Source: a virus. From it: a stretch of DNA of 56,815 bases. Position 1 is the stretch's first letter. Every line of letters starts with the position of its first letter. The stretch is taken from IMG/VR virus record IMGVR_UViG_3300033141_001667, positions 1-56,815 of that record; one strand, 5' to 3'. The notes under the pieces are model-generated. The model was not told the origin of the DNA, did no database searches, and saw nothing but the letters and a program-made list of their open reading frames with translations. Positions 3,636-44,816 of the stretch are shown one piece after another. The translations under genes and the position numbers were made by a program.

Positions 3636-4103
3636 CTACATCAACCCATTCGCCTTCATTGATAGGTGTTTGCCATTTGGCGCCAAGATAATGTGGTCCA
3701 GCACTCGGATTCCGAGAATCTCCCCAGCCTTTACAAGTCGTTTCGTCATTGCTATATCCTCCGGGCTTGCTTCCAGCCTACCAGAAGGATGATTATGCGC
3801 GAGGATGATTGCGGCCGCTCGGTCAACTATCACATCTGCAAACACTTCTCGCGGGTGAACTTGGTTACTATCCAGAAGCCCAAGAGTTACAATTCTTGCC
3901 GGACTATTTGGCTTGTTCGCACCATTGAGAGATAGGACCGCAAATGCTTCTTGCTTCAAGCTGCGGATTACCTCGAAGCACGAGAGCGTGTCTTCGGCGT
4001 CGCGGATAACCTTCTCGGTTGTCGGTGTGGGCTCTTTCACTTCACTGCACCATACGGCGCAACCGTTGACGAGCAGTTCAACCTTTGTGCTTGTCTCTTT
4101 CAT
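3636..4103 (-). CDS. radC: RadC-like JAB/MPN domain protein
   Basis: JAB-family metalloprotease fold of the RadC type. The zinc signature is intact: HNHPSG at residues 103-108 (H103, H105) followed by D116 in EASPEDIAMT, and an upstream glutamate-containing strand. Known RadC proteins are about 220 aa; this one, 155 aa, lacks the usual N-terminal helix-hairpin-helix region. Phage and plasmid versions are common beside antirestriction genes, although the biochemical role is unsettled. Start ATG 4103 overlaps the stop of the preceding gene (TAATG), implying translational coupling. Confidence 0.88.
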   Translation of the reverse strand: MKETSTKVELLVNGCAVWCSEVKEPTPTTEKVIRDAEDTLSCFEVIRSLKQEAFAVLSLNGANKPNSPARIVTLGLLDSNQVHPREVFADVIVDRAAAIILAHNHPSGRLEASPEDIAMTKRLVKAGEILGIRVLDHIILAPNGKHLSMKANGLM

Positions 4104-4536: not shown

Positions 4537-4782
4537 TTATCCCCTCAGATCTTCAGCTTGTTCTAATAGTTTTACCCTTGTTTCGGCATCGTATACTTGA
4601 TCCATATACAGAGCCCAAATAAAATCATCTAGGTCATCTAGGGTTATAATAGGTTCGCCGTCTGCATTGAGGTCCGACACTTGCCCTCTGTTGTTTTCTT
4701 CGTAGACTGTATATAGTCGCCTGCTACCAGTGTCCCCATTTTCGTAATATGTCTCTGCTCCGTAGAATCTATGATCTTTCAT
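4537..4782 (-). CDS. Hypothetical acidic phage protein, 81 aa
   Basis: Starts MKDHRFYGAETYYENGDTG with AAGGAGG upstream. The second half is strongly acidic (ITLDDLDDFIWALYMDQVYD). No catalytic or metal motif. Sits between two tiny genes and the 4103-4513 gene in one minus-strand run that begins at the promoter near 5139. Confidence 0.6.
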   Translation of the reverse strand: MKDHRFYGAETYYENGDTGSRRLYTVYEENNRGQVSDLNADGEPIITLDDLDDFIWALYMDQVYDAETRVKLLEQAEDLRG

Positions 4783-5166: not shown

Positions 5167-5255
5167 GTGACAACAGTTACCAAACAACTGGGACACCCGG
5201 CACCAATACAACGGGACAGACGCAAGCTGATAACTAGCTAAAACAAGCTATAACT

Positions 5256-5284
5256 TGACAAAGATTGACTAAAAGCTGACAAAA
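5256..5284. repeat. TGAC(A/T)AAA direct repeats, about 10-bp spacing
   Basis: TGAC-containing units begin at 5256, 5266 and 5277 (TTGACAAAGA, TTGACTAAAA, GCTGACAAAA), one helical turn apart, just before the probable small terminase gene. They may be a regulator binding site or small-terminase recognition repeats. Confidence 0.45.
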
Positions 5285-5297
5285 TATAGGAGAAATA

Positions 5298-5756
5298 ATG
5301 GCAACAAAGATCAATTGGACTGAAGCCGAGCGCGAGTATGTGCAGAGTAAACAACCTAAAACACTGAGCGAGATTGCTTCAATGTATAATGTATCGGAGA
5401 GGTCTTGTCACAGGCATTCGACCGAGGGAGAATGGGTTCGTAAGAGGCGGGAGTTTTGGAGTGCGGCAGCGGAGGCAACGAGACTTCTAGCAGTTAACCG
5501 TCAAGCAGAAGCTAATATAGATTCTTTAAAGATAGTAGAAACTATAACTTCTGATCTGTCTGCCATTGCCGATGAGATTGTAGTTGAACTAGCAACACGG
5601 GACCTCACTAACATACGCTCTGACGAGCTTATCAATATGCTGCCAAGAGTCTCAAACGCAGTGGACAAGGGTGTTAGGGCGATTTCATTCTTGAAAGGTG
5701 GACCGGATTCTCGCCAAGAACGCAGTTTTGCAGATCTCGCAAACAAGGCTAGATAA
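5298..5756 (+). CDS. terS: Probable small terminase subunit
   Basis: 152 aa with an N-terminal helix-turn-helix (TLSEIASMYNVSERSCHRHS, about residues 22-41) followed by a basic stretch (WVRKRREFW) and a long helical oligomerisation-type region. This architecture fits phage small terminases, which recognise the packaging site and load the large subunit. AGGAG precedes the ATG. It is unusually far (4.7 kb) from the large terminase gene at 10510. It could instead be a transcription regulator; the DNA-binding part is the secure element. Confidence 0.65.
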   Translation: MATKINWTEAEREYVQSKQPKTLSEIASMYNVSERSCHRHSTEGEWVRKRREFWSAAAEATRLLAVNRQAEANIDSLKIVETITSDLSAIADEIVVELATRDLTNIRSDELINMLPRVSNAVDKGVRAISFLKGGPDSRQERSFADLANKAR

Positions 5757-9347: not shown

Positions 9348-9656
9348 ATGACAGAACCAACATACGCAGATGGATTAGTAGAAGGCCGTCTAGTTACACT
9401 CGAAGCAGCCTCAGGCAAATACGAAGAAGAGATACATGGTCTTCGGAGTGATATAACTGGGATGGGCGAATCGCTTAGAAAAGAGATGAGACATTACCTA
9501 GAGCCGATTTATAATCAACTTATGGGTAATGGGCAGCCAGGATTGATTAAGCGGTTTGAGAATATAGCCACAACCGTCAAACTAAATTGGGGAGTAACAC
9601 TGCTTATGTTGGCTGCAATTATCGGTTTGGCATTAAGAGCATTCACCATCATCTAG
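9348..9656 (+). CDS. Coiled-coil protein with C-terminal membrane anchor
   Basis: 102 aa: a helical, charged first part (EGRLVTLEAASGKYEEEIHG) and one membrane segment near the C-terminus (GVTLLMLAAIIGLALRAFTI). This layout resembles XhlA/hemolysin-type holin partners of phages, which associate with the inner membrane. AAAAGGAATC precedes the ATG. It lies far from the candidate lysis area, so a lysis role is only a possibility. Confidence 0.6.
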   Translation: MTEPTYADGLVEGRLVTLEAASGKYEEEIHGLRSDITGMGESLRKEMRHYLEPIYNQLMGNGQPGLIKRFENIATTVKLNWGVTLLMLAAIIGLALRAFTII

Positions 9657-9659
9657 TTC

Positions 9660-9688
9660 TTGACTTTCCTCTTACTATGTGCTATAAT
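9660..9688 (+). promoter_or_regulatory. Strong sigma70-like promoter
   Basis: TTGACT (9660-9665), 17 bases, TATAAT (9683-9688), starting two bases after the stop of the previous gene. Predicted start about 9696. Confidence 0.75.
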
Positions 9689-9695
9689 AATAATT

Positions 9696-9787
9696 GGATG
9701 ATTGCGATGTGTATACAATACGAATAGTCGCGGTAAGGATTGGAAATAAATCAGCTGGGCTTCTGCCACAAGTTGTGGCATATTTTT
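9696..9787 (+). ncRNA. Candidate 92-nt small RNA
   Basis: Bounded by the strong promoter at 9660 and the intrinsic terminator at 9764-9787. No reading frame with a ribosome site lies inside. A complete promoter-terminator unit this short between genes suggests a dedicated small RNA; its target cannot be inferred. Confidence 0.45.
9764..9787 (+). terminator. Rho-independent terminator
   Basis: TGCCACA (9764-9770), loop AGT, TGTGGCA (9774-9780), then TATTTTT. A textbook stem with a U-run; it would also end readthrough from the kinase gene row. Confidence 0.8.
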
Positions 9788-9827
9788 AGGGAGTCTTCTG
9801 GTGAGGTTAATCTGCATAGTAACTAAG

Positions 9828-9890
9828 AGTGTTTAAAATAAAACCCCGGTGGGAAGCGAATGGCTGGCCAGCCGCGCCTTATTAAACACT
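9828..9890. other. Structured element before the tmRNA
   Basis: AGTGTTTAA (9828-9836) pairs perfectly with TTAAACACT (9882-9890), enclosing a 12-base palindrome GGCTGGCCAGCC (9861-9872). Length is 63 bases and the end is 14 bases before the tmRNA. No T-loop, so not a tRNA. Possibly a processing or transcription-termination structure. Confidence 0.5.
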
Positions 9891-9904
9891 GATCATTGAT
9901 ATTT

Positions 9905-10259
9905 GGGGGCAATGGGTATCGATTGGGTACCGGAAGCATAATTGCAAGCGTAGTGCCAACTACTAAACTGGCAACTAAAACGAACTGACACGATCAGATC
10001 ATTCTTCAGCAATCTGAAGGCTAAGGCTACAAGTTTCGTTGATGGGCTTCTCCTTGGCAACGATACATCAACAATTGCTTTACTGGCCACCGCTTAGCGG
10101 AAGTGCCGCGAATAGGCTTTTCTGATTGGGCCGATCAATCAGATGGTGGACGAGACGAAGTCAGTCTCCCCAAAAGCAGCCATGCTTAAATGGACAAGCT
10201 TGTAGATATTGTGTGAAAGGTGCAACAAGACGGGCGTTCAACTCGCCCTGCCTCCACCA
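9905..10259 (+). ncRNA. ssrA: Transfer-messenger RNA (tmRNA)
   Basis: 355 nt, the usual tmRNA size. Rescues stalled ribosomes by acting as tRNA-Ala and then as template for a degradation tag. The 5' GGGGGCA (9905-9911) pairs with 3' TGCCTCC (10249-10255) giving the G3-U70 pair required for alanine charging; then discriminator A and encoded CCA. T-arm: GGGCG, loop TTCAACT, CGCCC (10232-10248). An H-type pseudoknot near the start is visible: GTAGT/ACTAC at 9950-9963 with loop GCCA matching TGGC at 9969-9972, followed by an A-rich spacer as in known tmRNAs. The tag frame is uncertain: a frame open from 9954 ends ...GNDTSTIALLATA at TAG 10095, which would be a long tag; shorter alternatives stop within 5-11 codons. 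Confidence 0.88.
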
Positions 10260-10317
10260 GAATATAGTGGGAACTATGGAAAAGTGATGAATAGTGGGAA
10301 GCCAAATCCCTTTTAGC

Positions 10318-10346
10318 TGGACCCAGCAACCATTTTGTAGTATAAT
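10318..10346 (+). promoter_or_regulatory. Phage promoter, TGGACC-17-TATAAT family (copy 2)
   Basis: TGGACC (10318-10323), 17 bases, TATAAT (10341-10346) within TTTTAGCTGGACCCAGCAAC. It lies 31 bases before the first late gene and probably drives the terminase-portal transcript. Confidence 0.8.
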
Positions 10347-10376
10347 TAAGCCTACACTCATACATTAGGAGGGGGG

Positions 10377-10541
10377 ATGTCTAACTCTGAAGAAATTATT
10401 ACAGACTACACACCGATTCCAGGCTTCACAAAAGGTAAGGGGCTTTATTGCCTTAAAGTCCCGTGGCTTGTGAGAAAAGGCGCTGCGGGAGAGGCCGACA
10501 GAATACTCAATGAATCAAGTGATAACGAAGCTGACTCCTGA
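10377..10541 (+). CDS. Small hypothetical protein overlapping terL, 54 aa
   Basis: AGGAGGGGGG directly precedes ATG 10377. Sequence begins MSNSEEIITDYTPIPGFTKG and ends with an acidic tail (NESSDNEADS) that overlaps the first 32 bases of the large terminase gene. First gene of the late block and the only one there ending in TGA. Could couple translation of terL or be a packaging accessory. Confidence 0.6.
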   Translation: MSNSEEIITDYTPIPGFTKGKGLYCLKVPWLVRKGAAGEADRILNESSDNEADS

Positions 10542-12024
10542 AGAACGCGATCATCAAGCGTTTATTGCTGCCGACTATAAAAACAACCCAATGAATTTTA
10601 TCAAAAATATTCTTGGGTGCGAGTTGTGGTGGCGACAAGAAGAGATTGTAAAAAGTGTATGGAAGTATAAGCACACATATGTTCATTCGGCTAACTCTAT
10701 AGGTAAAACATATCTGGCTGGTAGACTAGCTCTTGCTTTTTACATGTGTCATATTGGCCCCAATAAAGAAGATGAAACCAAAGTAATTATTGTTGGGGCT
10801 AAATTTGATTCTTTACGATTGCAAACATGGGCTGAGCTAGGTTCTGCATATTACAAAGCGGCCTACCCCCTCGGCGGAAAATTACAAGCAAGAATCTACC
10901 ACGACTCTCCAGATAAACCAGAATCGTACATAGGTATTTTCGGCACAGACAAGGATAGCCCAGAGAATATCCAGGGTTTTCATGCTCCGAATATGCTCAT
11001 CATTGTCGAGGAAGCAAGCAAGCTCGATAGTGAAATAATGAAAGCCCTTGAAGGTTGTGCTGTTGCGGACAATAATCACATTTTGTGTATTGGAAACCCC
11101 ATCAGAACTGAGGGTATTTTCTTCGATAGATGTACGGACCCTAAAAATGAATATCTCAAAGAGGCCGGAATTAGGAACGTCATCGGCATTTCTGCTCTAG
11201 AAGCTCCAAATGTTGTATCTGGGCAAGACATATATCCGGGAATGCCTAATAGGGATTGGGTAGAGCAGCAAAAAGAAGAGTATGGAGAAGAAAGCCCATT
11301 CTATCAGGCCCGCGTATTAGGGCAGTTCCCATCTCAGGGTGAAGATCAGATTATCCCACTTGATTTAATCTATGATGCCTGTACTGATGAGCGACTTGAA
11401 CGCACTAGAATAGATACAGAAAATCGTGTTATGGCTCTCGATATTGCCAGACAAGGTGAAGATAAGTCTGCTATTGTTGGCATGTCCGGTGATTATGTAG
11501 AAGTACTGCATATGCGCAGGATAACCGATACGACAGTTACGAGAGATTGGTTCAAGCAAGAATTGTCCGATTTTAAAGGCGCGATACCCGGCATTGATGA
11601 AAATGGTCTCGGTGGTGGACCATATGACGAACTTAGGAAAGAGCGCATACCAGTTCGTGGCTGGATCTCTCAGCGGAAACCAGTTGACCAAGAGCGATTT
11701 TCGGATTTGAAATCAGAGACATTATGGAGTTTAAGAAAGAGATTTGAAGACGGTCTTATTGCAATACCGGAGAGCGAGTATAAAGATAAGCTGATAAGAG
11801 ATCTCGCTGGATATAGATATGGATTCGACAATAAAGGAAAACTTAAAAGCATAGATCCACATAAATCACCTGATCTTGGAGATGCGTTACTAATAGATCA
11901 CTGGTTACAGACGGCTGGAAAGCTGGGCTTAAAAATTGAATGTGGTAGCGCACCATCAGAAGATCGGGTTAATCTAGGCAGCATTGATAGAATATCAGTA
12001 GATATAGCGAATAGGGAGTTCTAG
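10510..12024 (+). CDS. terL: Terminase large subunit
   Basis: 504 aa packaging ATPase-nuclease that drives DNA into the prohead. Walker A variant SANSIGKT at residues 60-67, Walker B LIIVEEAS at 163-170, a coupling-motif-like CIGNP near 193, and an RNase-H-type nuclease domain beginning with D311 in MALDIARQGEDKSAIVG; the later acidic residues lie in GIDENGLGGG and SPDLGDALLID. Length is normal. Start overlaps the preceding 54-aa gene. The portal gene begins two bases after the stop. Confidence 0.93.
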   Translation: MNQVITKLTPEERDHQAFIAADYKNNPMNFIKNILGCELWWRQEEIVKSVWKYKHTYVHSANSIGKTYLAGRLALAFYMCHIGPNKEDETKVIIVGAKFDSLRLQTWAELGSAYYKAAYPLGGKLQARIYHDSPDKPESYIGIFGTDKDSPENIQGFHAPNMLIIVEEASKLDSEIMKALEGCAVADNNHILCIGNPIRTEGIFFDRCTDPKNEYLKEAGIRNVIGISALEAPNVVSGQDIYPGMPNRDWVEQQKEEYGEESPFYQARVLGQFPSQGEDQIIPLDLIYDACTDERLERTRIDTENRVMALDIARQGEDKSAIVGMSGDYVEVLHMRRITDTTVTRDWFKQELSDFKGAIPGIDENGLGGGPYDELRKERIPVRGWISQRKPVDQERFSDLKSETLWSLRKRFEDGLIAIPESEYKDKLIRDLAGYRYGFDNKGKLKSIDPHKSPDLGDALLIDHWLQTAGKLGLKIECGSAPSEDRVNLGSIDRISVDIANREF

Positions 12025-12026
12025 TT

Positions 12027-14210
12027 ATGGTAGAAGATAAAAAACTGCTTCTAGCAGGAGAGACAGGTCTTGAGGGAACAGAAATTTCTTCTGGTATTAT
12101 TCGGGAGCCATATATTTCTTCTACTATCCTTGGAGAAGACTATCTAGAAGACTGGACAATAGATACAGTGAATCATATGCTGTGTGGAGATGGGCAAGTA
12201 TCTGGTGTGTGGAAAGCTATTATGCTGGCTCTTCTACAGGGCAATTGGTCTATAGAACCATATGTGGAGAGAGGGAAAGAGAAACCTACTACTAAGAACA
12301 AAAAGATTGCAGAAGACATTGGTAATCAGTTAGCAGATATATGGAAACCCACTCTAAATGAAGCCGTTTACTATTTGCCGTATGGGTTTTCTATTTTTGA
12401 AGTTACAATGCGAGAACAAGGCGGGAAAATTATATGGGATCGCATTGCGCCCAGGCTACAACATACCATCAATAAGTGGGAATCAGAGAAGGGACACGTA
12501 GCCAGTGTCAATCAATATGTCTGGGATGATAAGCTAGGGATGTACCGCAATGACATCTGGATTCCTGGCAGGCGCATTCTGCGTTTTACGAACGATCAAC
12601 GCGGAGCAAATTTTGAGGGCCAGAGTTTTATGCGGGGCGCATATAAACATTTCCTTATCAATAATGCCCTGTATAAAATTAGTGCGATTTATTGGGAGAA
12701 GCACGGTATTGGCACAATTGTTGCCGCATCCCCTCCTGGAGCCAATGAGGATCAAGAGAAAGCACTGAAAGAAATCCTTCCTGGTTTAAGGGCAAACGAA
12801 CATGGCTATGTTTATCTCGGCCCCGTAGCCGGAGAAGTCAAACTCGAAGATATGCTTACGGTTATGGTTCCAAAAGGCGGCAGCGAGGGAATGGACGGTT
12901 TGCTTAAGTTCATTGTACACAACGATACTCTAATAGCCAGATCTATGCTTGCCCAATTTATGAGTCTTGGGGAGCAGGGCGCTGGAACGCGCTCTCTCAG
13001 TGCAGATATGAATGATCTGTTTCTAATGAATCTTGAGGCCATTACTGGTTACATAAGTCATATTATCTCTAATGGAAATTATGGAGAAAATAGGGGAATC
13101 AAAGATCTTGTTGATATCAATTATGGTGAAGTAGACGGATATCCTAGATGGGTTTGTGGCAGAACGAAGAAAACTGATAGCTCAGCAATCGGTGCCGTAA
13201 TCGCTCAGCTCGTCCAATCGGGCGCAATGCGACCCGATGATTCGTTAGAAGATTTTCTACGCGGCATTCTCGGCGCTCCAAAAGATCTTATTAACCCCCG
13301 GCAAGCAAGCATAGCTACAAGGACAACCCAAAAGAATAATGTTGATTCAATAGACACGCCAGAGAATAGCGAGATGTCGGAACTCAAGAAATTTGAAGAA
13401 GGTATAATCCCGGCACCATTAAGGCGCGGCCGATTTCCATGGGAAGCGAATATAAGATTCGAGGAAATTAGAGATCGGTTAGATAGTCAAGAGGATCGCA
13501 TTGTTTCTAAATGGCGGGATATCTTCATTCAACAGATTGATGCAATTGGCGAAACAGTTGGTTCTATTGTCTCTCGAAAAGATTTAGAAAAAATTTACTC
13601 CGCAGAAGTGCCACTACAAGACGAGCTTGCTGAATATATCGCTTTAACACTACAATCAGTTCACTCTAGCGGACGTAGCGATGTAAAGAATGAGATGTTA
13701 GCACAGATTGCCGTACCATTATTCCAAGAGGACGAAGAGAAAGATGACGAAGAAATCTTGCCATTGTTTGTTCTCCAGGGAAGAAAAGCAGCCGAACGGT
13801 TAGCATCTAAGACTAAACAGGCGATAGAAGCTGCGGCAATTGCCGCTCTAGTGGCTGCAGAAGAAGCGTTATGGGAAGATATTCGAGAAAGAGCGATGCT
13901 TCTATCCGATCAATATGCGCGAGATGAGAGCAAATTCGTCAATTCGGCATATGGAATGGGCAGGAATGAAGTTATTGCAGCCGCTATCGCTGCTGGATTG
14001 GTTGAGGAGAGATACTATTCAGCAATGTTTGACGCTTGTGAGGTTTGCGCTGCAATGGACGGGGTAAAATATTCGGAGAGGCCCTTCGTTATACCAAATC
14101 CCGCGTGTTTAGGAGCGATTTACTCTAAAGCTGGCGGCAACCCATGTAGGTGTTTAGTCATCGTTATTCTTGAGGTTGGCGTGTTGTCTAATCAGATTCA
14201 GGCTCTTTAA
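12027..14210 (+). CDS. Portal protein fused to MuF head-morphogenesis domain
   Basis: 727 aa. The first about 420 residues are a DUF935/Mu gp29-like portal, the dodecameric gate for DNA at the head vertex. The C-terminal about 200 residues are a MuF/SPP1-gp7-like minor head domain, recognisable by DACEVCAAMDG, VIPNPACLG and the final NPCRCLVIVIL. In Mu and SPP1 these are separate genes; here they form one frame with a charged linker (ELKKFEEGIIPAPLRRGRFP). Start ATG follows TAGGGAGTTCTAGTT. Confidence 0.85.
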   Translation: MVEDKKLLLAGETGLEGTEISSGIIREPYISSTILGEDYLEDWTIDTVNHMLCGDGQVSGVWKAIMLALLQGNWSIEPYVERGKEKPTTKNKKIAEDIGNQLADIWKPTLNEAVYYLPYGFSIFEVTMREQGGKIIWDRIAPRLQHTINKWESEKGHVASVNQYVWDDKLGMYRNDIWIPGRRILRFTNDQRGANFEGQSFMRGAYKHFLINNALYKISAIYWEKHGIGTIVAASPPGANEDQEKALKEILPGLRANEHGYVYLGPVAGEVKLEDMLTVMVPKGGSEGMDGLLKFIVHNDTLIARSMLAQFMSLGEQGAGTRSLSADMNDLFLMNLEAITGYISHIISNGNYGENRGIKDLVDINYGEVDGYPRWVCGRTKKTDSSAIGAVIAQLVQSGAMRPDDSLEDFLRGILGAPKDLINPRQASIATRTTQKNNVDSIDTPENSEMSELKKFEEGIIPAPLRRGRFPWEANIRFEEIRDRLDSQEDRIVSKWRDIFIQQIDAIGETVGSIVSRKDLEKIYSAEVPLQDELAEYIALTLQSVHSSGRSDVKNEMLAQIAVPLFQEDEEKDDEEILPLFVLQGRKAAERLASKTKQAIEAAAIAALVAAEEALWEDIRERAMLLSDQYARDESKFVNSAYGMGRNEVIAAAIAAGLVEERYYSAMFDACEVCAAMDGVKYSERPFVIPNPACLGAIYSKAGGNPCRCLVIVILEVGVLSNQIQAL

Positions 14211-44597: not shown

Positions 44598-44602
44598 AGA
44601 GC

Positions 44603-44668
44603 GAGAGCGGTGCGGACGGCGTATGGTTTCCACCCTACGCGACGAACGTTCGATTCCTTCCGCTCTCG
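44603..44668 (+). tRNA. tRNA-like gene, reduced D-arm
   Basis: Acceptor GAGAGCG pairs with CGCTCTC (44661-44667). T-arm region GAACG-TTCGATT-CCTTC has one mismatch. Anticodon area GTATGG-TTTCCAC-CC suggests TCC (Gly) but the stem needs a bulge, and only about 9 bases remain for the D-arm. No encoded CCA. A degenerate or unusual tRNA. Confidence 0.35.
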
Positions 44669-44676
44669 TAGATGAG

Positions 44677-44744
44677 GGAGGCAGCAGGTTTGCGGGCCAG
44701 GTCCTATAAACTTACGTTCACGGGTTCGACTCCCGTTGCCTCCA
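44677..44744 (+). tRNA. tRNA-like gene, possible tRNA-Ile(UAU), short D-arm
   Basis: Perfect acceptor GGAGGCA/TGCCTCC and perfect T-arm ACGGG-TTCGACT-CCCGT. The anticodon loop best reads CCTATAA (anticodon TAT) with an imperfect stem and C instead of U at position 33. D-arm is only GCA-GGTT-TGC. Total 68 bases, discriminator A, no CCA. Real acceptor and T-arm but the middle is abnormal. Confidence 0.5.
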
Positions 44745-44816
44745 ACAGAGTGTTGTAGTATTACATTTGGCTCGATTTGTCAAAGAACAATGATGCTCAA
44801 TCGCTAAGGGCATCTT

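Follow-up and report, generated by a model that had tools for sequence, protein, structure and literature searches.

One-piece tmRNAs encoded by phages have been described for the mycobacteriophages Bxz1, Cali, Catera, and Wildcat and for the Bacillus phage G (PMC4131195). In a survey from 2021, tmRNA was found in 402 of 18,146 phage genomes (PMC9004378). The mycobacteriophage DS6A contains a tag-less tmRNA-like RNA, and a similar molecule inhibits tmRNA (PMC4131195). Extended tags are found in bacteria, where a passage in PMC9382460, citing Ge and Karzai 2009 and Gur and Sauer 2008, describes the SsrA tags of Mycoplasma and Mesoplasma as read by Lon.

The DNA analyzed here (the window) is a whole virus record from IMG/VR, 56,815 bases long. 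With a probability of roughly 0.78, positions 9905-10259 on the plus strand encode a full-length, one-piece phage tmRNA (ssrA) that resumes translation at GAC 9987 and adds a tag of 36 residues. The match to the Rfam tmRNA family RF00023 covers exactly this interval of 355 nt and the complete model (positions 1-374), and it reaches 53 bits (E 4.8e-18) against a curated cut-off of 47. The fold of the whole RNA lies 3.26 sd below dinucleotide shuffles (z -3.26), none of 100 shuffles being equally good. A phage-borne tmRNA at this position had been proposed in a first-pass annotation; the full-length match and the phage genes in the record bear it out, the Infernal-type comparison suggested there as a check being the significant match given above. 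As in Bxz1, Cali, Catera, Wildcat, and phage G, the ssrA gene is complete and part of a phage genome. Unlike in these phages, the gene is not seen by ARAGORN, has zero blastn matches among 50,697 phage records, and specifies a 36-residue tag. With the RNA of DS6A it has in common that a phage RNA would act on the ribosome-rescue system. However, the DS6A RNA comprises little beyond the tRNA-like domain, whereas the window gene is complete and holds a 36-codon frame within its 355 nt, which sets it apart from tag-less mimics. No intron family is matched within 9600-10400 and the total length is ordinary, so it is not a group I intron-containing tmRNA either. The window tmRNA is real and is an extreme of a known kind. 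Phage tmRNAs being already known, what is new is how long the tag is, how small the pseudoknot region is, and that ARAGORN has a detection limit; the analysis itself adds this limit, the assignment of the tag frame, and a survey of viral tmRNAs.

The 5′ half of the acceptor stem, GGGGGCA (9905-9911), pairs at 7 of 7 positions with TGCCTCC at 10249-10255. The third pair is G3-U70, the alanine identity pair, and the 3′ end ACCA is encoded in the gene. The T-arm with its T-loop TTCAACT, the 3′ acceptor half, and the ACCA occupy 10230-10259, as placed by the Rfam alignment and the sequence. According to the Rfam alignment and the fold, an anticodon arm is absent and a long P2 joins the tRNA-like domain to the ring; its 3′ strand GACAAGCTTGTAGA lies at 10193-10206, and herein GCTTGT (10198-10203) pairs with GCAAGC near 9944-9949. 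The compact first pseudoknot PK1 (9950-9972), as read from the sequence alone, consists of GTAGT 9950-9954/ACTAC 9959-9963 (5 bp) and GCCA 9955-9958/TGGC 9969-9972 (4 bp) and lies upstream of the resume codon. It is followed by a spacer of 14 nt, AACTAAAACGAACT (9973-9986), which ends in GAACT, a junction also present in the viral tmRNAs L014 and L130, and places an A at -4, the equivalent of A86 of E. coli. A P5-like hairpin surrounds the TAG stop (10085-10108); its position fits P5 and is not proof, the fold of 10076-10118 (-11.8 kcal/mol) being no better than shuffles (z 0.13). The region where PK2-PK4 normally sit is reduced to ~79 nt (10109-10187) with two predicted hairpins, TCTGATTG/CAATCAGA within 10120-10143 and GAGAC/GTCTC at 10152-10168. 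The stop codon is followed by 162 nt, compared with 241 in E. coli; as the shortened pseudoknot region offsets the extra coding length, the total size of the RNA stays normal. With its G3-U70 pair, CCA end, SmpB-type tRNA-like domain, PK1, and resume region, the RNA has the anatomy of a chargeable tmRNA; all elements named in the first-pass annotation (acceptor stem, G3-U70, TTCAACT, CCA, 355 nt, and the 5′ pseudoknot) are found where it had placed them.

The most likely tag is DTIRSFFSNLKAKATSFVDGLLLGNDTSTIALLATA, whose 36 residues would be read on the plus strand from GAC 9987 through the stop codon (9987-10097). As described earlier, no stop codon interrupts this frame between 9954 and TAG 10095-10097, its tag ends in ALLATA, and the shorter frames from GCA 9971 and GAA 9982 stop after 5 and 11 codons; among these candidates, which had been left undecided, the long frame is the best supported by the junctions, by A(-4) and G(0), and by its final Ala. 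The junction is common to three viral tmRNAs, reading CGAACT/GAC in the window, GCGAACT/GAC in L014, and TTGAACT/GAC in L130. From there, L014 continues GAC GAA GTC CGC GAA CTC TTG GCT GCT TAA (tag DEVRELLAA) and L130 continues GAC AAC AAT ... GCA GCT TAG (tag DNNQSSKIVGFIGSARQELAQAA), and both RNAs exceed the Rfam cut-off (88.1 and 79.2 bits, respectively). An A at -4 is found in 104/104 reference tmRNAs, as is a G at 0, where the resume codon begins. The former agrees with the result from E. coli tmRNA, which depends critically on A86 but tolerates U85G (PMC2481249). Seven starts in the window combine A(-4) with G(0), and solely the frame from GAC 9987 ends in Ala. The final residue is Ala in 108/108 ARAGORN tags, and the second from last is Ala in 101 of them. 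The resemblance to ALAA tags that had been noted therefore holds for the final Ala and not for the penultimate Thr, which has zero cases among the 108 reference tags; the C terminus is small and hydrophobic, ending in ATA and not in AA. The resume offset speaks for this site, being 83 nt in the window and in L130 and adjoining the 84-98 nt of the bulk of the sample. The site is marginal in two respects: G at -5, as in the window, is rare (3/104 reference tmRNAs), and the matrix score of 1.56 is at the low end (reference minimum -0.49, 5th percentile 3.1). The reference tags and sites are ARAGORN calls, and that program has preferences of its own, whereas the L014 and L130 junctions were read by eye where ARAGORN had mis-assigned or missed the gene. 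Hence, the junctions are the more independent evidence, since the other frame controls lean on the choices of ARAGORN. Resumption at CGA 9981, which has the E. coli motif UA at -5/-4, was dropped because every reference resume codon begins with G and because of the L014/L130 junction. The location of the stop codon within the P5-like hairpin is uninformative as a test of the frame, as 71/104 true stops and 864/1458 of all stop triplets from the same reference RNAs lie in hairpins. The tag has zero matches in the PDB.

A functional tmRNA with a short tag, in which the long frame has arisen by chance, is unlikely. The length of the open frame is weak evidence against it, since 36 open codons are expected by chance in 22% of first-order Markov sequences. 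Its possible starts are GAA 9982 (ELTRSDHSSAI), GCA 9971 (ATKTN), and GGC 9970 (GN, i.e. Gly-Asn). Of these, GAA 9982 has an A at -4, but it lacks the shared GAACT/G junction and has a matrix score of -0.27; the best matrix score is that of GGC 9970 (2.59 compared with 1.56 for GAC 9987), but this start would give two residues only. Positions 9970 and 9971 are moreover part of TGGC, a strand of PK1, and their offset of 66-67 nt is far from the 84-98 of the sample, and the short tags end in Ile or Asn, an ending seen in none of the 108 Ala-ended reference tags.

A decaying tmRNA pseudogene or an attachment-site remnant that has lost its function is quite improbable. The score is low for the family, 53 bits compared with 57-147 bits for the other full-length viral tmRNAs found, and in the related contig L003 the corresponding terminase gene is preceded by no more than a 3′ tmRNA-like end. 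However, L113 (57.6 bits) and L010 (71.9 bits) are real tmRNAs and score low too, while acceptor stem (7/7), CCA, T-arm, P2, and PK1 of the window gene are intact and its fold has the favorable z-score given above; for an attachment site, the record has zero matches to a tyrosine integrase. It is very improbable indeed that the long middle is an inserted intron or mobile element, removed from the RNA, in an otherwise normal-length tag region. In favor of it, the tag region is in total about three times as long as usual; however, tmRNA apart, zero RNA families including introns are matched in 9600-10400 at E up to 5, and a search for copies of the tag region elsewhere in the window gave none that is significant. 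On net nothing is added, because the total gene length of 355 nt is ordinary.

ARAGORN, the most widely used tmRNA finder, gives zero tmRNA calls over the window. The first-pass annotation had expected it to fix the tag; it could not do so owing to its length limit. When the tag of the E. coli K-12 ssrA gene is padded with the rest left unchanged, ARAGORN still reports the gene at a tag length of 33 residues but loses it from 34 residues on, and it is hence blind to tags as long as that of the window. Its silence is not counted against the window tmRNA, since the E. coli gene is also lost at 34 or more codons. Tag length is not the sole cause of such misses, because L130, L113, and L053 (274 nt) are real tmRNAs found by Rfam and missed by ARAGORN as well. 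The protocol of the main tmRNA database combines ARAGORN with BLASTN-based matches to known tmRNAs (PMC11915505), and divergent genes whose tags reach 34 residues or more would therefore usually be missed. Tags of 34 or more residues are thus probably under-recorded: what is on record about tag lengths comes largely from ARAGORN and from matching of the BLAST type, and tags like that of the window are excluded by design. Tag length bears on the handling of rescued proteins.

On viral contigs, some of which are prophage regions including host tmRNA, 112 ARAGORN calls have tags of 8-30 residues with a mode of 10. The longer ones measure 19, 19, 20, 25, 26, and 30 residues, so that the description of the window tag as unusually long is right for this sample, its 36 residues exceeding the maximum of 30. 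Long tags also occur in viral tmRNAs missed by ARAGORN, with 23 residues in L130 and 28 or 32 in L113. Hence, 36 residues are the extreme of a continuum of viral tag lengths. The extended tags of Mycoplasma and Mesoplasma (about 27 residues) likewise exceed the usual tag length; they differ in being bacterial, shorter than 36 residues, and of an NYAFA-type ending, a motif that is absent from the window tag. A scan for the unusual GGNTATCGA D-loop returned four true tmRNAs (L007, L008, L010, and L014), a 3′-end scan returned L016 and L017, and a general pattern about 100 further viral tmRNAs. L014, L008, and L010, with GGNTATCGA D-loops and tags beginning with Asp, have the TATCGA D-loop and the GAC resume codon in common with the window, and L014 in addition has its GAACT before GAC and GACAAGCNTGTAGA in P2. 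However, their tags comprise 9, 8, and 16 residues, respectively, compared with 36, and similarity beyond the ends is low. No close homologue of the window tmRNA was found in the viral contigs by the 3′-end pattern scan, and blastn of phages with the L010 and L016 tmRNAs as queries gave short end matches only.

The tmRNA gene sits between a deoxynucleoside kinase gene, 700 bp upstream, and tailed-phage genes for the terminase large subunit (10510-12024), the portal (12027-14210), capsid-like proteins, and a protease of the head. When viral contigs were scanned with portal and terminase, the relatives L003-L006 were returned, zero of them with a full tmRNA, and a portal scan of genome contigs had zero matches. 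L005, with terminase and portal 64% and 62% identical to those of the window, lacks a tmRNA and has 13 tRNA genes upstream of the corresponding terminase. The small ORF directly before the terminase (window 10377-10541) is kept in L005 with 36% identity (E 4e-7). The terminase of L003 is 48% identical. The site upstream of the terminase resembles a slot in which translation RNAs are carried as cargo; these would be the usual cargo there because L005 holds its tRNA genes at this site. No obvious promoter was seen directly before the tmRNA gene. Further upstream, a near-consensus promoter TTGACT-17-TATAAT with TG (11/12) lies within 9660-9780, followed by a terminator-like hairpin at 9764-9780, giving a possible transcript of ~90 nt just upstream of the tmRNA. 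An imperfect stem AGTGTTTAA...TTAAACACT (9826-9892, z -1.45, zero Rfam matches) directly precedes the gene.

Based on what is known of the family, the window tmRNA would be charged with alanine by the host alanyl-tRNA synthetase and brought by host SmpB to ribosomes stalled on broken messages; it would depend on SmpB of the host, since the record has zero SmpB matches. After the template switch, translation would resume at GAC 9987, adding Ala and the 36-residue tag ending in ALLATA, and would end at TAG 10095 with release of the ribosome. The tag would then mark the protein for degradation by a host protease recognizing hydrophobic C termini that end in alanine; which protease, and how efficiently, is uncertain because the ATA end is close to, and not identical with, the usual AA. 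The likely benefit is that ribosomes are kept available during infection, and a role in late-infection rescue or in altered protein turnover, as raised in the first-pass annotation, is plausible. The odds are poor that the tag does more than mark for destruction and that tags of at least 34 residues form a real phage class missed by current finders. If so, the tag might hold, e.g. a segment binding an own protease, an adaptor, or a membrane, with which the phage would redirect rescued host proteins elsewhere.

Other RNAs of related appearance were seen. A tRNA-like fold of 71 nt at 44677-44747 (plus strand) of the window scores 29.1 bits as tag-less tmRNA and 22.3 bits as tRNA, both below cut-off. 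Its acceptor GGAGGCA/TGCCTCC has A3-U70, so alanine identity is absent, and it ends in AACA; it may be a tRNA in decay or a mimic of the DS6A kind. A second tRNA-like fold adjoins it at 44598-44669 (plus strand; 13.6 bits as tRNA from 44603, z -2.9). The viral contig L100 has a tag-less tmRNA consisting of the tRNA-like domain only (5218-5298, RF00023 65.5 bits), with a GGTTTCGACG D-loop and G3-U70, inside a tRNA array; it is apparently another DS6A-type RNA. At the end of the 13-tRNA array of L005, positions 4620-4680 are tRNA-like with a paired acceptor and T-arm and no normal anticodon arm. A GOLLD RNA match (L075:7397-7814, 182 bits) lies in a viral contig that has both a tmRNA and a tRNA array, and a Pistol ribozyme match (L110:4010-4077, 60.6 bits) in another tmRNA-containing viral contig. 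In addition, the window encodes a phage-borne RadC-like JAB-domain protein at 3636-4103 (minus strand, 116 bits).
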